A stretch of DNA of 37,232 nt from assembly GCF_003862495.1 (NCBI RefSeq), contig NZ_RRCH01000039.1, forward strand, positions 1 to 37,232. Reading direction: 5' to 3'. The notes beneath the pieces were generated by a model. That model did no database searches and was not told the DNA's origin. It saw only the letters and a list, made by a program, of their open reading frames with translations. This document shows positions 12,155 to 20,811 of this stretch, piece after piece; the stretch's first letter is position 1; the number at the start of each line of letters is the position of its first letter. This DNA comes from Halocatena pleomorpha. GTDB lineage: Archaea; Halobacteriota; Halobacteria; Halobacteriales; Haloarculaceae. The position numbers were made by a program, and so were the translations under genes.

Positions 12155-12170
12155 TTTAGGATGGCCTAAA
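12155..12170. promoter_or_regulatory. Iron-box-like operator 1
   Basis: Perfect inverted repeat TTTAGG-ATGG-CCTAAA. It resembles the DtxR/IdeR consensus core (TTAGG-N4-CCTAA), which binds Fe(II)-loaded DtxR-family repressors. It lies just upstream of the likely TATA box of the siderophore operon, near the position where TFB would bind. Confidence 0.75.
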
Positions 12171-12178
12171 AATCGGTG

Positions 12179-12187
12179 GCTTTATGT
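12179..12187 (+). promoter_or_regulatory. TATA-like box of the siderophore operon
   Basis: GCTTTATGTG sits between the two iron-box palindromes. A start 25-28 bases downstream would fall around 12210, next to the ATG at 12213 and before the dat ATG at 12280. Another A/T-rich element (CTTATTTAGG at 12151) overlaps operator 1 and is the alternative. Confidence 0.45.
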
Positions 12188-12189
12188 GT

Positions 12190-12205
12190 TTTAGGTTCGC
12201 CTAAA
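12190..12205. promoter_or_regulatory. Iron-box-like operator 2
   Basis: Perfect inverted repeat TTTAGG-TTCG-CCTAAA with exactly the same arms as operator 1 and a different spacer. The centres are 35 bp apart. It lies between the TATA-like box and the presumed transcription start, where a bound repressor would block RNA polymerase recruitment. Confidence 0.75.
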
Positions 12206-12212
12206 TCCATAC

Positions 12213-12293
12213 ATGCACGAACTGATATCTCCGATGTGGAGTACCGTCGACGGTTCCAAGGGTTTAGGGGGGTGTAGCGATGCCGGACGCTGA
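12213..12293 (+). CDS. Possible 26-residue leader ORF of the siderophore operon
   Basis: An ATG right at the predicted transcript start opens a 26-codon frame (MHELISPMWSTVDGSKGLGG, then six more residues) that stops with TGA at 12291-12293. It overlaps the dat start codon by 14 bases in another frame. If the transcript is leaderless, ribosomes would meet this frame first and terminate just past the dat ATG, which has its own GGGGGGTG ribosome-binding-like sequence. This could couple dat translation to the leader. There is no known homolog and the coding signal is too short to test by eye, so it may be chance. Confidence 0.25.
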   Translation: MHELISPMWSTVDGSKGLGGCSDAGR

Positions 12294-13668
12294 TGAGCTG
12301 TTGTCTCAACAGGCTGCCCGGGAATCGAACGCTCGGACGTACCCTCGTCACCTTCCGATCACCATCGAGACCGCCACGGGACTAGTCGTCGAGGACGTGG
12401 ATGGGAACAGTTATCTCGACTGTCTCGCCGGTGCCGGGAGCCTCGCGTTGGGACACAACCACCCGGTTGTGGTCGACGCGATCGATCAGGCGTTACAAAA
12501 CGAACGGCCCCATCACACGCTCGACCTCACGACGCCGCTCAAAGAACGGTTTGTCGATACGCTGTTCGAGAGCCTTCCCGATCGATTCGTCTCCTCAGCG
12601 AAGATCCAATTCTGTAGCCCGGCGGGAACTGACGCCGTGGAGGCGGCATTGAAGCTGGTGAAAACCGCGACCGGCAACCGTGACGTGCTGGCGTTTCAGG
12701 GTGGCTACCACGGGATGACCACCGGTGCGTTGAGCCTGATGGGCGACGTTGCTGTCAAATCCGACGTTTCCGGTTTGATGCCCGGTGTTCACCACCTGCC
12801 GTATCCCTACGACTACCGGAGTCCGTTCGGGTCGGCGGCCGGCCACGAGACCGCCAGCCGATACGTCGAGCACGTGTTAGACGATCCTAACGGCGGCATC
12901 GGGGAGCCGGCGGGGTTGATCACCGAACTTGTTCAGGGCGAGGGGGGCGTGATCCCCGCGCCCGACGCGTGGACACAGGAGATCCGACGGATCACCCGCG
13001 AGCGTGATATTCCCCTCATCGTAGACGAGATCCAAACCGGACTCGGACGGACAGGTGAGCTGTACGCGTTCGAGCACGCCGACATCACGCCCGATGTTGT
13101 GACGCTCTCGAAGGCGATCGGCGGAGGGCTTCCGCTGTCGGTGATCGTGTACGATGAGCGTCTCGATGTTTGGGAGCCGGGTGCTCATGCGGGGACGTTC
13201 CGGGGGCACCAGCTGGCGATGGCGGCGGGTCAGGCGACGATCGAATACGTGCTTGACAACGACTTAGACGAGCACGCGGCACAGATGGGTGCGCGCCTCG
13301 AATCCCGACTCGAACGCACCGACGAGCAGTTCGATGTGATCGGTGATGTTCGGGGCCGTGGGCTGATGCTCGGCGTCGAAATCGTCGATCCGGCAGCCGC
13401 CGGTGGCGAAACCGTCGACCCGGACGGGACTGATCCGAGCGAAACGCCGGACGAGCACGCCCCTCCGCATCCAGAGCATCCCGACCTCGCAAAACGGATT
13501 CAAGCGTCGTGTCTCGATCGCGGGTTGATCATCGAGCGGGGGGGTCGTGCGGGCGCGACGGTGCGATTCCTTCCGCCGTTGACCGTTTCGAAGGCACAGA
13601 TCGACGAGATCGCGGCGATCTTCCACGAAGCCGTGGTAGCCGAAGCAGCCACGGAGGGGCGTCGATGA
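12280..13668 (+). CDS. dat: 2,4-Diaminobutyrate aminotransferase (siderophore)
   Basis: First enzyme of the operon. This class III PLP aminotransferase converts aspartate semialdehyde plus glutamate into L-2,4-diaminobutyrate, the role of RhbA in rhizobactin synthesis. Visible are the N-terminal DVDGNSYLDCLAGAGSLALGHNHP, CSPAGTDAVEAALKL (cofactor phosphate region), AFQGGYHGMTTGALSLMG, VDEIQTGLGRTG with the cofactor-contacting Asp, and the Schiff-base Lys278 in TLSKAIGGGLP. The 462-residue length is normal. An acidic insertion near 385-405 (DPDGTDPSETPDEHAPP) looks like a halophilic loop. A strong GGGGGGTG lies about 5 bases before the ATG. Its stop overlaps the next start by 4 bases (ATGA). 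The ectoine enzyme EctB is a close relative, but the neighbours argue for siderophore use. Confidence 0.93.
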   Translation: MPDADELLSQQAARESNARTYPRHLPITIETATGLVVEDVDGNSYLDCLAGAGSLALGHNHPVVVDAIDQALQNERPHHTLDLTTPLKERFVDTLFESLPDRFVSSAKIQFCSPAGTDAVEAALKLVKTATGNRDVLAFQGGYHGMTTGALSLMGDVAVKSDVSGLMPGVHHLPYPYDYRSPFGSAAGHETASRYVEHVLDDPNGGIGEPAGLITELVQGEGGVIPAPDAWTQEIRRITRERDIPLIVDEIQTGLGRTGELYAFEHADITPDVVTLSKAIGGGLPLSVIVYDERLDVWEPGAHAGTFRGHQLAMAAGQATIEYVLDNDLDEHAAQMGARLESRLERTDEQFDVIGDVRGRGLMLGVEIVDPAAAGGETVDPDGTDPSETPDEHAPPHPEHPDLAKRIQASCLDRGLIIERGGRAGATVRFLPPLTVSKAQIDEIAAIFHEAVVAEAATEGRR

Positions 13669-15170
13669 GCCGTACTGACGCGCCCGAGCGGGAGCGTACT
13701 GCCGGTCTCTTCTTGGGATCGGACACCACACCCGCCTACCGAACTGCGATGGAACAGGCGTACCGGGCCGTGACCGACGTGTATCTCGAACGAGCGACGC
13801 CGTACACCGGCCGCTCACCCGAGCAACTCGCCGCGCAGTTCGAGGACCACGACGTACTTCCCGAGAACGGACAGGGAGTGACGGAGACGATCGAAACGGT
13901 TGCCCAGACGGTGGTCGCCAACTCCGTCGGAACGTCCGACCCCGCGTGTGTGGCACACCTCCAGTGTCCACCAATGATCCCGGCGTTGGCGGCAGAGGTG
14001 CTTATCTCTGCCACCAACCAGTCGTTGGATTCGTGGGATCAGGCACCGGCGGCGACGGAACTGGAAACTCGTCTGATCGAGGCGCTGGCGGGCGTGTTCG
14101 GCTACGGAGACGACGCTGACGGCGTGTTCACGTCCGGCGGCACCCAGTCGAATTTCATGGGGCTGTTGCTCGCGCGCAACTGGGTGCTCGATGAACGGTT
14201 CGACCACGACGCACAGGCGGACGGTCTCCCACCGGCTGCGGATTCGCTGCGAATCCTCTGTTCGGCGGACGCCCATTTCACGGCGCGCCAAGCCGCGGCA
14301 CAGCTCGGACTCGGTGAGCGCGCCATCGTTTCGATCCCCACCGACGAGCACCATCGCCTCTCGATCGACGCCCTCGATTCGACACTCGCGGAGTTGGCCG
14401 CCGATGACTGCGAGCCGTTCGCGTTGATCGGAACGGCTGGGACGACCGATTTCGGTAGCATCGATCCGTTGGCCAAACTCGGTGCTCACGCGCGCGAACA
14501 CGATCTGTGGTTCCACGTCGACGCGGCGTACGGCGGCGCACTCGCGCTCAGCGATCGTCACCGAGAGAAACTACGCGGCATCGAGATGGCCGATTCGATC
14601 GCCGTGGACTTTCACAAGCTGTTTTACCAGCCGCTCAGCTGTGGAGCGTTCCTCCTCGGGGACGGCACACACTACCAGTACATCGACCGCAACGCCGAGT
14701 ATCTCAACCCAGAATCCGATGACGCCGCGCATCTCGTCTCCAAGTCGGTTCAAACCTCCCGGCGGTTCGACGCGCTGAAACCGTACATCGCGTTTCGAAC
14801 GCTCGGCCGGGACGGCTTCGAGGAGCTGATCGATTACACCCTCGATCTCACAACCGCAGTCGCCCAACGGATCAAGGACGATCCCGCGTTCGAGCTGAAA
14901 CACGAACCGACGTTGAACGCCGTAGTGTTCCGGTATCGTCCGCCGACGAACGCAGAGACAGCGATCAACGACCGGATCCGAGATCGGTTACGCGCTGCGG
15001 GCACCGCCATGATCGCCAGAACGACCGTCGACGGCGAGCCGTGTCTCAAATTCACGCTGTTGAACCCACGGACGACGGTTGAGACCATCGAGGACGTCCT
15101 CACGGCGATCAAACGACACGGGTCGGCGCTTTCGACCGGTGAGCGAACGACACGGGGGGTGGAACAATGA
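13665..15170 (+). CDS. bdb: L-2,4-diaminobutyrate decarboxylase (siderophore)
   Basis: PLP-dependent group II decarboxylase that turns 2,4-diaminobutyrate into 1,3-diaminopropane, the diamine backbone of schizokinen-type siderophores (RhbB role). The 501-residue protein contains SDPACVAHLQCPPMIPALAAE (substrate region), GVFTSGGTQSNFMGLLLARN (cofactor phosphate binding), the His of CSADAHFTARQAA that stacks on PLP, LIGTAGTTDFGSIDPL, WFHVDAAYGG with the Asp, and Lys318 in VDFHKLFYQP as the Schiff-base residue. The start is the ATG at 13665, which overlaps the aminotransferase stop as ATGA; the frame is open upstream but that part has no homology. The related glutamate and DOPA decarboxylases share this fold, so the context decides the substrate. 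Confidence 0.93.
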   Translation: MSRTDAPERERTAGLFLGSDTTPAYRTAMEQAYRAVTDVYLERATPYTGRSPEQLAAQFEDHDVLPENGQGVTETIETVAQTVVANSVGTSDPACVAHLQCPPMIPALAAEVLISATNQSLDSWDQAPAATELETRLIEALAGVFGYGDDADGVFTSGGTQSNFMGLLLARNWVLDERFDHDAQADGLPPAADSLRILCSADAHFTARQAAAQLGLGERAIVSIPTDEHHRLSIDALDSTLAELAADDCEPFALIGTAGTTDFGSIDPLAKLGAHAREHDLWFHVDAAYGGALALSDRHREKLRGIEMADSIAVDFHKLFYQPLSCGAFLLGDGTHYQYIDRNAEYLNPESDDAAHLVSKSVQTSRRFDALKPYIAFRTLGRDGFEELIDYTLDLTTAVAQRIKDDPAFELKHEPTLNAVVFRYRPPTNAETAINDRIRDRLRAAGTAMIARTTVDGEPCLKFTLLNPRTTVETIEDVLTAIKRHGSALSTGERTTRGVEQ

Positions 15171-16975
15171 CGGCACAATCGCCCGACGCGGAGTCAATCG
15201 CCCGAGCAGCGACGACACACGGACTGTTGAACTGCTATTTCAGGGAAACCGGGCGGTTCGACCGTCGAGAGCCGGCGGCGATCGCCCACTCTGACTGTTC
15301 GGTGGTGTTCCACAGCGAGCTGCCGAACATGGGCATGGAGTTAGCGGTGCCCGTCCGACACGATTCACCGACCGGTCGGCACCTGTTCGCGTTGCCGGTG
15401 TACTGTCGCTCCGGGTCAGACGGCTGGACCGAGTTGGACTACGCCACGCTCGCCAGCGTGATCGTTCGGGATCTCGCGCTGTCGCACTCGGATCCTGACA
15501 GCGCGGACGAACTCCTGCTGGGGATCATTCGCAGCTGTCAGAACACGGCGCGGTACGTGGCGGCTCGGGACGATGTTGACCGGCTGTACGGCGACGATCC
15601 GACGTTCCGAGACGCCGAGCAGTCGCTTGTGTTCGGTCACCTCCTTCATCCCACACCGAAACACAGAGAGGGAATTGCCACGCGCGACGAACCGACGTAC
15701 GCGCCCGAGTTGCGCGGACAGTTCCAGCTCCACTACTTCCGCGCCGCGCCCGAACTCGTGCACCATGGCTCGGCGCGAGAGGCGTCGGCCATCGAGTGGG
15801 TAAAAACGGAGCTGCGTGATTCGGGCGTGCCTGACAGTCGCCTTGATGGCGACGACGCGGTGATTCCGGTCCATCCGTGGCAGGCGGCGTATCTGCTTGA
15901 TCAGCCACACGTCGAGGCGGCGATCGAGGCAGGGACGCTCGAACACCTCGGCGCGCTCGGACCGACGTTTTATCCTACGTCATCGGTACGGACCCTCTAC
16001 AGCCCGAGTACGTCGTTCATGGTGAAAGGATCGTTGAACGTGCGGATCACGAACTCGGTTCGGACGAACAAGCAACCTGAGCTACGGCGAGGCGTCGCAG
16101 TATCGGAGCTGCTCGAAACTGATCTCGGGACGCAGCTTCACGAGCGATATCCGGCCTTCGACATCGTTCGGGATCCGGCGTATCTCACGCTCGATCTGGG
16201 GACCGAACCAGAATCCGGGTTCGAAGTCGTGTTGCGAGAGAACCCGTTTTGTGATGGGCACGAAACCGGTGTCACGCCGGTCGTCGCGCTCTGTCAGGAC
16301 CACGTCCACAGCACCCACCTCACTGGCGATGGCGACGGAACTCGCTCCCGGCTCAGCACCATCGTTCACGCGATAGCGGAGCGTGAGGGGCGGGATACGG
16401 CGGCTGTGAGCGAGGAGTGGTTCCGGCGGTATCTGTCGATCTCCGTTCGACCGGTGTTGTGGCTGTATCTCACCTACGGGGTCGGACTCGAAGCTCACCA
16501 GCAAAACAGCGTGCTCGCCATGACGGACGGATATCCGGATCGGTTCTACTACCGCGACAACCAGGGGTATTACTTCGCTGAATCGACCTACGAGACCGTC
16601 GATGCGTTGGTACCGGGTGTCGGTGAGCGCGCCGATACGATCTGTCGTGACGACGTTACAGACGAGCGGATCCGGTACTACGTGATCCTCAACAACGCCT
16701 TCGGACTCATCAACGCCTTCGGTTCCGCTGGACTCATTGCGGAACGCCGGCTGCTTGAGCTGCTTCGAGAGGTGTTGCAGGAACTGCGCCAGTTCGATCG
16801 TGACTCCTCAACGCTGCTCGAAGAGCTGCTCACCGCCGAGACGCTTCCGTGTAAGGCGAACTTACTGACACGGCTTCACGGGATGGATGAACTCGAAGGA
16901 TCGATCGAAAACCAGTCGGTGTACACGGAGATCGACAATCCCCTCGTGACCGAGCTGGAGGTGTCCCAGCAATGA
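15167..16975 (+). CDS. iucA: IucA/IucC-family siderophore synthetase, first copy
   Basis: NRPS-independent siderophore (NIS) synthetase of 602 residues that activates a carboxylate of citrate as an adenylate and condenses it with the acyl-hydroxamate amine. NIS landmarks are PVHPWQAAYLL near residue 234-244 (the HPWQ motif) and PTSSVRTLYSPSTSFMVKGS with the Ser-x-Arg-Thr nucleotide contact near 275. KGSLNVRITNSVRTNK follows. Later come EAHQQNSVLAM, with the conserved His-Gln-Gln-Asn region of the active site, and a C-terminal FhuF-like helical part. It sits at the RhbC position, so it most likely carries out the first condensation with free citrate; the type (A or C) is inferred from order, not proven. 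The ATG overlaps the decarboxylase stop by 4 bases after a GGGGGGTGG ribosome-binding-like run. Confidence 0.93.
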   Translation: MTAQSPDAESIARAATTHGLLNCYFRETGRFDRREPAAIAHSDCSVVFHSELPNMGMELAVPVRHDSPTGRHLFALPVYCRSGSDGWTELDYATLASVIVRDLALSHSDPDSADELLLGIIRSCQNTARYVAARDDVDRLYGDDPTFRDAEQSLVFGHLLHPTPKHREGIATRDEPTYAPELRGQFQLHYFRAAPELVHHGSAREASAIEWVKTELRDSGVPDSRLDGDDAVIPVHPWQAAYLLDQPHVEAAIEAGTLEHLGALGPTFYPTSSVRTLYSPSTSFMVKGSLNVRITNSVRTNKQPELRRGVAVSELLETDLGTQLHERYPAFDIVRDPAYLTLDLGTEPESGFEVVLRENPFCDGHETGVTPVVALCQDHVHSTHLTGDGDGTRSRLSTIVHAIAEREGRDTAAVSEEWFRRYLSISVRPVLWLYLTYGVGLEAHQQNSVLAMTDGYPDRFYYRDNQGYYFAESTYETVDALVPGVGERADTICRDDVTDERIRYYVILNNAFGLINAFGSAGLIAERRLLELLREVLQELRQFDRDSSTLLEELLTAETLPCKANLLTRLHGMDELEGSIENQSVYTEIDNPLVTELEVSQQ

Positions 16976-17577
16976 GCACCGGCATCAACACGGCTGCCTA
17001 CGACTACCGAACGTACGATCCGACACTGGAACGGACGATCGCGTTCCGGAAGGCGACGATGGACCGTGATTTAGAGCGGCTTCACGCGTGGTTCAATGCC
17101 GAGCACGTGCTGCCGTACTGGCAGCTGAACGATCCCCTCCCGGCGGTTCGGGCGGCTGTCGCAGAGAAACTCGACGACGCGCATCTAACGCCGTACATCG
17201 GCTATCTCGACCACGTACCGATGAGCTACTGGGAGTGTTACTGGGCAGGAAGCGACGAACTGGCCGACTACTGTGAGACCGAACCGGCCGATCAGGGGAT
17301 TCATCTGCTCATCGGGCCTGAAGAGTATCTCGGACGCGGATACGCGATCCCGTTGGTGCGAGCAGTCACGGAACTGCAGTTTTCCCACCCCGAAACCGAC
17401 CGCATCCTCACAGAACCCGATATCAGAAACGACGCCGTTATCCACGTGTTCGAACGGTGTGGGTTCGAGCCACGACGGGAGATCGAACTCCCTGAAAAAG
17501 ACGCCCTGTTGATGGTGTGTGAGCGCGATCGGTTTCAGGCGCTCCACAGCGACCGAGAGGTGCCCACCGATGACTGA
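16972..17577 (+). CDS. iucB: N-hydroxy-diamine acetyltransferase (siderophore)
   Basis: GNAT-fold acetyltransferase of 201 residues at the RhbD position. It transfers an acetyl group from acetyl-CoA to the N-hydroxylated diaminopropane, forming the hydroxamate that binds iron. It belongs to the AlcB/IucB-type siderophore acetyltransferases: the segment LHAWFNAEHVLPYWQLNDP near residues 35-55 and SYWECYWAGSDELADYC near 85-100 are typical. The acetyl-CoA loop is HLLIGPEEYLGRGYAIPLVRA, and EPDIRNDAVIHVFERCGFEP marks the GNAT C-terminus. It overlaps the IucA stop by 4 bases and the next gene by 8 bases. Acyl chain choice cannot be read from sequence; acetyl is assumed from the family. Confidence 0.92.
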   Translation: MSTGINTAAYDYRTYDPTLERTIAFRKATMDRDLERLHAWFNAEHVLPYWQLNDPLPAVRAAVAEKLDDAHLTPYIGYLDHVPMSYWECYWAGSDELADYCETEPADQGIHLLIGPEEYLGRGYAIPLVRAVTELQFSHPETDRILTEPDIRNDAVIHVFERCGFEPRREIELPEKDALLMVCERDRFQALHSDREVPTDD

Positions 17578-18970
17578 GGTGTATGATGTCGTCGGGATCG
17601 GTCTCGGGCCGTTCAATCTCGGATTAGCGGCCCTGCTCGACGACACCGAGGCGACGGGGCTGTTTCTCGAACAGCGCTCGGAATTCGTCTGGCACGAGGG
17701 CATGCTCATCGAGGGGACGACGCTCGAAGTGCCGTTTCTGGCGGATCTCGTCACGCTTGCCGATCCAACCAACCCCTACAGCTACCTCAACTATCTGCGC
17801 GAAACGGGACGGATCTACGAATTTTATTTCTATGAGACGTTCCAGATCCCTCGGCGGGAGTACGACGACTACCTCCGGTGGGTGTCCGAACGGCTCAACA
17901 GCTGTGTGTTCGACCGTCGGGTCGATTCCGTCCGCTGGGACGAACACACAGAACGGTTCGTCCTCACGGCCGTCGACCCAGAGACCGGTGACACCCACGA
18001 ATACCACGCCGAGAACGTCGCGCTCGGGATCGGGAGTCAGCCCCACGTTCCGGATGAACTGGGTGATCACCCCGCTCAGGACGTGTTCCACACCGCCTCG
18101 TATCTCCATCGCAGAGAGCGGTGTCTCGACGCCGATTCGATCACGGTCGTCGGATCTGGCCAGAGCGCCGCGGAAGTCTTTCTCGATCTCCTTGACCACC
18201 AACCCGACGGCGGCTACCGCCTCGATTGGCTGACGCGCTCGGATGGCTTTTTCCCGATGGAGTATTCGAAACTCGGACTCCAGCATTTCACCCCAGAGTA
18301 CACTCAATACGTGTACGACCTTCCACAGGAAACCAAAGACGAACTTATTCCGGACCAAGACCTGCTGTACAAAGGAATCGACGTGACTACGAGCGCGGAG
18401 ATTTACGACCTGCTCTACCGGCGTTCGATCGGGAACCGTGACCCGAACGTCGGTCTCTTTGCGATGACCGCGGTGTCCGGGATCGAATCAACGGACGAAG
18501 GCTATCGGTTGGCGTGTGAGCAAACCCAGACCGAACAGGCGTTTTCCCACGAGAGCGACGTGGTGGTCCTCGGAACTGGCTACGAGCGTCCCGTTCCGGA
18601 CTGTCTCGATCCGCTGTCCGAACGGATCACGGTCGACGATCACGGCCGATTCGAGATCACCGAGGATTATCGGCTCGAACTCCCCGACATCGGTGGTCAG
18701 GTGTTCGTTCAGAACGCCGAATTACACACCCACGGCGTCGGAACGCCGGATCTCGGTCTTGGCTGCTACCGGAACACACGCATCGTGAACCAACTCCTCG
18801 GCCGTGAGCGGTACCCGTTGGATACCGACACCGTTTACCAGGATTTCGCTCTCGATCAGTTCATCGAGCACGCCCCCGGCGCTACGGTGCCAAACGAATC
18901 GACTGACGACCAGCAGTCCGACCCGTCCACACGGCCGGCGTCGGAGACACACACCGACTACCAACAATGA
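17570..18970 (+). CDS. iucD: Diamine N-monooxygenase (siderophore)
   Basis: FAD- and NADPH-dependent N-hydroxylating monooxygenase of 466 residues (RhbE role), adding a hydroxyl to the terminal amine of 1,3-diaminopropane. The N-terminal FAD motif is VVGIGLGPFNLGLAALLDD. LADPTNPYSYLNYLRETGRIYEFY matches the substrate region of lysine/ornithine N-monooxygenases. The NADPH motif VVGSGQSAAEVFLDLL is near residue 192, and LGTGYERPVP near 334 is the family ATGY element. The true start is the ATG at 17570 (MTEVYDVVGIG), which overlaps the acetyltransferase stop by 8 bases; an upstream in-frame extension lies inside that gene and is ignored. An Asp/Ser/Thr-rich tail of about 30 residues ends the protein. 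Confidence 0.93.
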   Translation: MTEVYDVVGIGLGPFNLGLAALLDDTEATGLFLEQRSEFVWHEGMLIEGTTLEVPFLADLVTLADPTNPYSYLNYLRETGRIYEFYFYETFQIPRREYDDYLRWVSERLNSCVFDRRVDSVRWDEHTERFVLTAVDPETGDTHEYHAENVALGIGSQPHVPDELGDHPAQDVFHTASYLHRRERCLDADSITVVGSGQSAAEVFLDLLDHQPDGGYRLDWLTRSDGFFPMEYSKLGLQHFTPEYTQYVYDLPQETKDELIPDQDLLYKGIDVTTSAEIYDLLYRRSIGNRDPNVGLFAMTAVSGIESTDEGYRLACEQTQTEQAFSHESDVVVLGTGYERPVPDCLDPLSERITVDDHGRFEITEDYRLELPDIGGQVFVQNAELHTHGVGTPDLGLGCYRNTRIVNQLLGRERYPLDTDTVYQDFALDQFIEHAPGATVPNESTDDQQSDPSTRPASETHTDYQQ

Positions 18971-20811
18971 CGCTTGGATATCAGAACTCCCAGACGGAGG
19001 AATCGATAGCCGACACCATCCCGCTCGAAACGGCGTTGACGCCTGATGTGTGGGAAACCGTCAGCCGCCGGTTGCTGAGCAAGATGCTCTCGATGTTCAT
19101 GTACGAGGAGATCATCACGCCCGTTCCGGAGGACGACACCGAGACCGGTGATCGAATCCGGTATCGGTTGCCGATGGACACCGACAGCAACTATCGGTTC
19201 GAAGCGACCGAGCGGTTGCTGGACAGCTATCACGTGCACGAAGCGACGATCGAGCGTCAGACGGATGGAGCGTGGCAACCGGCAACCGATCCGATCCGGT
19301 TTCTGCGGGATCTCCAGCCGACGATTGGTATCGATCCGCTCACGGCCGGCAACCTCATCCGCGAGTACAACAACACGTTGCTCGCGGACGCTCACATCGA
19401 AGCCCGGAGCCGAACGCGCGAAACGACCGATCTCACCGAACTCGACTACGCCCAACTGGAGGGTGAAATGGAGGGCCATCCGTGGATCACGTACAATAAG
19501 GGCCGGCTCGGGTGGGGGTACACCGACTACCGATCGTACGCACCCGAACAACAGCGACCAATCACGCTATCGTGGGTGGCTGTGTCCCGCGAGAACGCGA
19601 CGTTCTCCGCCGTAAACGGCGTCTCACACGACTCGCTCGTGCAGAGTGAGCTTGGCGATCACTACCACCAGTTCTGTAGCCAACTCCGGTCGGACGGTCT
19701 CGATCCTGATTCGTACTACTTCCTGCCGATCCACGACTGGCAGTGGGACAACTCGATCGTGCAGTTGTTCCCTCGGGATATCGCCACCGACGACATCGTT
19801 CCGCTCGGGGATGGCCCGGATCGGTATCTGCCCCAACAGTCCGTCCGGACGTTCGTGAACATCGATTCGGTGGATCGCCACCACGTGAAACTCCCGATGC
19901 GGATGCTCAACACGCTCGTGTGGCGCGGGCTGCCGGGCAGCCGAACGGAGCTAGCACCGACGATCACGGAGTACATCAAAGGGATCTATGAGACCGACGA
20001 GTTCCTCTCTTCGGAGTGTGACCTCATCTTGCCGGGGGAGATCGCCGGAATCAACTACGATCACGAGGATTTCACCGCCATCGATGGCGTCCCATATCAG
20101 TACACGGAACTACTGGGGACGATCTGGCGCGAGAGCATCTACACGTTCGTCGATGAGGACGAACAGCCGATCACGTTGGCGGCGTTGGCTCACGTCGAGA
20201 ACGGGACGCCGTATCTCTCACAGCTTGTCGAGCGTTCGGGGCTTACGCTGGATGAGTGGCTCGAACAGCTTTTCGATGTGGTGTTGCCGCCGCTGTTGCA
20301 TTTCCTCTATCGGTACGGCACCGTCTTCTCTCCCCACGGTCAGAACACGATTCTCATACTGGAGGACGGCATTCCAACCCGGCTCGCGGTCAAGGATTTC
20401 GTGGATGACGTGAACGTCAGCGACCAGCCACTGCCGGAACTGGAAGCGCTGCCCGACGAACTGCGCAGCGTGCTCCGGACCGAACCACCAGAAGGGCTGT
20501 GTCAGTTCATCTTCAGCGGGCTGTTCGTCGGCGTGCTCCGGTACGTCGCTGATATTCTCGAAACCCACCACGGTTACGACGAACGACGCCTATGGACCCA
20601 CGCACGCGAAACGATCCTCCGGTACCAAGACCGGTTCCCGGAGCTTCAAGACCGCTTCGAGCTGTTCGATCTGCTCCGACCGGAGTTCACGAAACTCTGT
20701 CTCAACCGCAACCGGCTGTTGGAGTATGGCTACGGCGACGCACCCGGCCGACCGCACGCCGCCGAACACGGCACCGTCCGCAACGCGCTCGACGTGGTCG
20801 GAGAGGACTGA
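18967..20811 (+). CDS. iucC: IucA/IucC-family siderophore synthetase, second copy
   Basis: The second NIS synthetase of the operon, 614 residues, at the RhbF position, expected to join the second hydroxamate arm to the citryl monoamide and finish the siderophore. The family motifs are FLPIHDWQWDNSIVQLF near residue 255 (His-x-Trp-Gln), LPQQSVRTFVNIDSVDRHHV with Ser-x-Arg-Thr, LPMRMLNTLVWRGLPGSR, and FSPHGQNTILIL (catalytic-site Gln-Asn). It diverges clearly from the first copy, as expected if the two act on different acceptors. Its ATG overlaps the monooxygenase stop by 4 bases. No further gene follows in tight order: a gap of about 110 bases containing a short T-rich stretch (GATTTTCTGTCTTG) separates it from the HEPN/MNT pair. 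Confidence 0.93.
   Translation: MTLGYQNSQTEESIADTIPLETALTPDVWETVSRRLLSKMLSMFMYEEIITPVPEDDTETGDRIRYRLPMDTDSNYRFEATERLLDSYHVHEATIERQTDGAWQPATDPIRFLRDLQPTIGIDPLTAGNLIREYNNTLLADAHIEARSRTRETTDLTELDYAQLEGEMEGHPWITYNKGRLGWGYTDYRSYAPEQQRPITLSWVAVSRENATFSAVNGVSHDSLVQSELGDHYHQFCSQLRSDGLDPDSYYFLPIHDWQWDNSIVQLFPRDIATDDIVPLGDGPDRYLPQQSVRTFVNIDSVDRHHVKLPMRMLNTLVWRGLPGSRTELAPTITEYIKGIYETDEFLSSECDLILPGEIAGINYDHEDFTAIDGVPYQYTELLGTIWRESIYTFVDEDEQPITLAALAHVENGTPYLSQLVERSGLTLDEWLEQLFDVVLPPLLHFLYRYGTVFSPHGQNTILILEDGIPTRLAVKDFVDDVNVSDQPLPELEALPDELRSVLRTEPPEGLCQFIFSGLFVGVLRYVADILETHHGYDERRLWTHARETILRYQDRFPELQDRFELFDLLRPEFTKLCLNRNRLLEYGYGDAPGRPHAAEHGTVRNALDVVGED

Follow-up and report, generated by a model that had tools for sequence, protein, structure and literature searches.

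Twin iron boxes in front of a siderophore operon

The analysed stretch of Halocatena pleomorpha DNA, hereafter the window, spans 37,232 nucleotides and carries, from 12280 to 20811, six co-directed genes that lie behind two copies of a palindrome and form a siderophore operon. Its gene set and order are those of the Haloferax volcanii dat-bdb-iucABDC siderophore operon, which is expressed as a single transcript that is on average ∼44-fold more abundant without iron (PMC7407949). The promoter and the genes are laid out as follows:

12155..12170, no strand: distal iron box TTTAGGATGGCCTAAA, 34-36 bp from the proximal box in 32/43 orthologous promoters
12173..12179, + strand: BRE-like element TCGGTGG, with position-specific CCG conservation after the distal box; putative function
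12180..12186, + strand: TATA-like box CTTTATG, with T-T at -9/-8 of the proximal box in 42/43 promoters
12190..12205, no strand: proximal iron box TTTAGGTTCGCCTAAA, found in 43/43 orthologous promoters having any box
12206..12213, + strand: predicted leaderless transcription start region, from the TATA distance and the start-codon position in 27/27 twin loci
12213..12293, + strand: short, predicted leaderless ORF of 26 aa, MHELISPMWSTVDGSKGLGGCSDAGR, overlapping dat by 14 nt, with equivalent ORFs in orthologous loci
12267..12274, + strand: Shine-Dalgarno-like GGGGGGTG before dat
12280..13668, + strand: class III aminotransferase (dat), first annotated operon gene (PF00202)
13509..15170, + strand: PLP-dependent decarboxylase (PF00282; coordinates of the longest ORF, with a probable true start near 13665)
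15167..16975, + strand: IucA/IucC-family siderophore synthetase (PF04183)
16972..17577, + strand: GNAT acetyltransferase, IucB-like (PF13523)
17519..18970, + strand: N-monooxygenase, IucD-like (longest ORF; PF13434)
18967..20811, + strand: second IucA/IucC-family synthetase, IucC-like (PF04183)

The palindrome TTTAGG-N4-CCTAAA is present twice with identical arms, different spacers (ATGG and TTCG) and centres 35 bp apart, exactly as the initial annotation had described. The window has no further match even when 2 mismatches are allowed; chance would give 0.15 matches and 0/100 shuffles reached 2, which puts the pair far above chance.

The motif is rare and its pairing is conserved among haloarchaea

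Throughout the 3.65 Mb genome the full TTTAGGN4CCTAAA occurs at 4 sites, two of which are this pair, and the shorter TTAGGN4CCTAA at 8, versus 1 for the pattern read backwards. Two other sites in the genome lie directly upstream of Fe-siderophore binding proteins and one upstream of a FecCD permease; a box on C4 has no clear target gene. The frequency of the motif, which the initial annotation had left to a genome scan, is thus low, and across the class its sites are concentrated before siderophore and DtxR-family genes.

Two further sites were noted. At C23 (L142 ∼6381; G000:C23:373380) a box, accompanied by a degenerate second box ∼26 bp off, lies upstream of a minus-strand 47-aa ORF beginning MATSEPAVESAEAIVTAHA. 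At C14 (L144 2392; G000:C14:99391) a perfect box is found 64 nt upstream of a 427-aa protein that has no Pfam or NCBIfam match and is a candidate novel iron-regulated protein.

Across 97 genomes of the class, single boxes yield 1142 hits versus 116 for the reversed control, a 9.8-fold excess, with 1 to 28 boxes per genome. When two boxes with a gap of 8-38 bp are required, 256/391 genomes of the class have a match, and the reversed control has none in any listed genome. Among the 75 pairs listed, some of them from related genomes and so not all independent, the centre spacing is 33-37 bp in 70 and exactly 36 in 42. Wider gaps of 39-69 bp give a pair in just 8/145 genomes. The twin boxes can be taken as real and conserved because the same rigid spacing recurs in most of the haloarchaeal genomes examined. 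A common and randomly placed motif is excluded by its rarity in the genome, its class-wide excess and the near-absence of wider gaps.

The 28 genes adjoining twin boxes comprise 10 Peripla_BP_2 siderophore-binding proteins, 6 DtxR-family regulators and 5 dat genes; the boxes precede iron-uptake and siderophore genes, as is expected of a haloarchaeal DtxR-family iron regulon. In a related genus (L029, L030, L035, L038, L039, L043, L046), twin boxes are found ∼230-390 nt upstream of a short DtxR-family gene, and the ORF in between, which opens 4-5 nt past the box, has a conserved start resembling MA(D/G)DGTECGAQTG. This arrangement likely reflects auto- or cross-regulation of the short DtxR-family gene with its own leader ORF.

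Palindromes predicted to be single-dimer operators

The regulator IdeR normally binds as two dimers on a 19-bp site, and it also binds the 14-bp sequence TTAGGNNNNCCTAA as one dimer (PMC8464063). Both boxes match this single-dimer DtxR/IdeR operator with 0 mismatches, so the resemblance to the bacterial consensus that had been proposed for the core is a letter-for-letter fit. The 19-bp two-dimer operator TTAGGTTAGSCTAACCTAA was rejected: in 80 haloarchaeal boxes the outer repeats fit no better than random bases, and an A follows CCTAA in 78/80 where a C is required. As there is no sign of a second interleaved site, the promoter appears to hold two separate single-dimer sites that flank the BRE-TATA core.

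That the twin palindromes are DtxR-family operators, as first proposed, is a prediction strongly supported by the class-wide excess, the placement of the boxes, the match to the IdeR site and a conserved metal-binding DtxR-family protein (below). They share with bacterial DtxR/IdeR operators the TTAGG-N4-CCTAA half-site, which there receives an iron-activated dimer (PMC8464063), and the metal sites are intact in the candidate repressor here. The layout differs: a bacterial operator is typically a single 19-bp site to which two dimers bind interleaved, from opposite faces of the DNA (PMC8464063), whereas the haloarchaeal sites are separate, ∼36 bp apart, and bracket BRE-TATA. It is very improbable that the palindromes instead serve a regulator outside the DtxR family or are core promoter elements rather than operators. 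The constant position of the proximal box relative to TATA is what one would expect of a core element, but a motif so sparse (1 to 28 per genome), found mostly at iron-uptake and DtxR genes and identical to the IdeR/DtxR half-site is hard to reconcile with either role.

A conserved promoter layout with a probable leaderless start

Fetching the loci that encode relatives of the first operon gene, together with their promoters, yielded 43 box-bearing haloarchaeal promoters, counting that of the window. The order of elements is box, BRE, TATA, box, 2-8 nt and ATG, with a CCG-type BRE directly after the distal box. The TATA-like box suggested by the initial annotation does lie between the palindromes, and its T-T is kept in all but one of these promoters. 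Both T-T and the CCG-type BRE agree with the haloarchaeal promoter elements TTWT and CGAAA (PMC4983044). In 32 of the 43 promoters the boxes are paired at 34-36 bp, and in the other 11 there is a single box, which is always the proximal one. The proximal box is rigid relative to TATA, while the spacing of the distal box varies by 1-2 bp.

In all 27 twin loci found by pattern alone, whose orientation was chosen partly by the start-codon feature itself, a start codon follows 3-7 nt after the proximal box. This position suggests that transcription probably starts at or just before that codon, giving a leaderless transcript, which would put the proximal box at about -20 to -5.

Three or four iron boxes are found at some siderophore promoters (L062, L069, L071). 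A Halogranum siderophore promoter has a third box 27 bp further on, and that of Haloarcula pellucida has four boxes at 33-36 bp steps.

A candidate repressor present in all genomes tested

The genome has two clear DtxR-family genes, L009 and L010. The first is the better candidate for the mechanism proposed below:

C18:20503-21177: three-domain DtxR-family repressor of the TroR/SirR type (L009), assigned from sequence

The DtxR fold of L009 is clear from its sequence, which comprises three domains (DNA-binding, metal-binding/dimerisation and FeoA) and is similar to the structurally characterised IdeR and DtxR. Residues D10, H80, E84, H99, D103, E106 and H107, at IdeR ligand positions, are invariant in 30 orthologs, and the genome thus encodes a DtxR-family protein with both metal ligands and a DNA-binding helix, as an iron regulon of this kind calls for. 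L009 has Asp where IdeR has Met10 and Cys102, and Asp at those positions leans towards TroR/MntR-like proteins answering to Mn(II) or Fe(II). Because of these replacements, Mn(II) is a possible effector of L009 besides Fe(II).

An ortholog of L009 is found in 97/97 genomes tested, so its presence does not set it apart from other DtxR-family proteins, and co-occurrence of repressor and motif across these 97 genomes is uninformative. Genomes without a box excess (G014, G029, G093) display no consistent change in the ortholog; the G093 copy is the most divergent, at 39% identity. In the loci around the two DtxR genes of H. pleomorpha itself, no iron box was found at up to 3 mismatches.

The true binder could also be the shorter, Idr-like L010, alone or with the three-domain protein, which we judge unlikely. 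Idr1 and Idr2 act in Halobacterium iron homeostasis, according to PMC11349517, and the presence of the short DtxR-family gene itself behind twin boxes in several related genomes implies that it belongs to the circuit. However, L010 is without the FeoA domain and without most primary-site metal ligands, which makes metal-dependent binding by L010 alone doubtful.

A proposed mechanism for iron repression

We propose, with a probability of about 0.78, that a metal-dependent three-domain repressor of the TroR/SirR type acts on two single-dimer operators to shut the siderophore operon when iron is sufficient. Metal-loaded repressor dimers would then bind both boxes. The proximal dimer would lie over about -20 to -5, the stretch in which TFB makes contact, the promoter melts and polymerase is loaded, and the distal dimer would cover the DNA just upstream of BRE. 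Together the two dimers would clamp the BRE-TATA core, prevent TFB or polymerase function and shut off the operon, and iron depletion would release them and turn the operon on. The proximal box would be the essential one, with the distal box strengthening repression or playing a separate role. The motif and its rarity, the rigid spacing, the order of promoter elements, the target genes and a conserved repressor with intact metal ligands are observed directly; we infer repressor binding, the identity of the metal, the simultaneous or cooperative occupancy of the boxes and the transcription step that would be blocked. On balance, the interpretation given in the initial annotation is partly supported. 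Dual occupancy is not obligatory, given the 11 orthologous promoters with one box, and the spacing of 35-36 bp corresponds to ∼3.4 helical turns, which offers no simple same-face argument for cooperativity.

There is a minor but real chance that only the proximal box represses and that the distal one, at about -55 to -40, is a separate element through which the same or another regulator activates or tunes the promoter at low or high iron. Archaeal activators usually bind upstream of BRE, where the distal box lies. The proximal box is never missing and is rigid to TATA, while the distal box is absent from 11/43 promoters and shifts by 1-2 bp, and in H. pleomorpha itself siderophore-binding and permease genes have single-box promoters. 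Against this division of labour, both boxes have the same sequence and a near-constant spacing in most genomes, which fits their joint use. Since the spacing is fixed, helical-phase and single-box mutants would be directly informative.

A mini-ORF that may couple translation to the first gene

In 33 of the 43 orthologous loci, the ATG after the proximal box opens an ORF of 16-24 codons that ends in a 4-nt overlap (ATGA or GTGA) with dat, and in one further locus the ORF ends in TGATG, a 1-nt overlap; at loci with more than one ATG, these counts use the best-fitting one. Considering every ATG just after the box, the mini-ORF frame has 34, and the two remaining frames have 7 and 4. Five of the 43 loci have the ATG in frame with dat. 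Overlaps of the kind associated with translational coupling (4 or 1 nt) are thus found in 34/43 orthologous loci and also at the FecCD permease of H. pleomorpha, where a 34-aa ORF after the box (L143 2587-2691) ends in ATGA. The overlap is 14 nt in the window and 7 nt in a sister genome.

The peptides have little similarity between genera; a conserved leader peptide was rejected on this ground, and it is apparently the frame, not the peptide sequence, that is preserved. Work on Haloferax volcanii shows that genes overlapping by 4 nt are strictly coupled and that de novo initiation at 5'-UTRs gets no support from Shine-Dalgarno motifs (PMC6728339). Translation of the operon may therefore depend on the mini-ORF, which may drive it by termination-reinitiation. 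If translated, it would explain how a gene with an apparent leader of 50-80 nt is translated where Shine-Dalgarno motifs fail at 5'-UTRs. No mention of the mini-ORF arrangement was found in PMC7407949.

Discussion

DtxR-family control of iron genes in haloarchaea is already published, as cited in PMC11349517 and PMC11218638, and the relation between regulator and operator is therefore not new. The Haloferax volcanii TroR and Halobacterium Idr1-Idr2 regulons likewise place iron-uptake and siderophore genes under DtxR-family proteins.

What may be unreported so far is the rigid bracketing layout together with the mini-ORF. We tentatively suggest, at clearly less than even odds, that haloarchaea have a distinct split operator, with two single-dimer DtxR sites ∼36 bp apart trapping BRE-TATA between two dimers. 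At the siderophore operon it would be joined to a leaderless mini-ORF that feeds ribosomes into the first gene, giving transcription and translation a common iron-controlled start. The conserved layout amounts to an exact set of promoter rules for archaeal iron control that holds across the class. It also offers a clean case for asking how a repressor of bacterial type works on a promoter served by eukaryote-like TBP and TFB: it might exclude TBP/TFB, block polymerase or trap a bound complex.

Other DtxR-family systems offer partial parallels. The Haloferax volcanii TroR study of Martinez Pastor, from 2024, reportedly has TroR binding a motif ∼100 nt upstream of start codons, a distance that fits the box position here. 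Schmid in 2011 and Leyn and Rodionov in 2015 are also cited on these haloarchaeal iron regulons in PMC11349517 and PMC11218638. Archaeoglobus fulgidus MDR1, reportedly described by Bell et al. in 1999, is said to be a DtxR-family repressor with several operators at one promoter that blocks polymerase recruitment from operators over the start region. It would thus resemble the twin boxes in being an archaeal DtxR-family repressor with multiple operators, and would differ in that its operators reportedly cover the start rather than bracket BRE-TATA.
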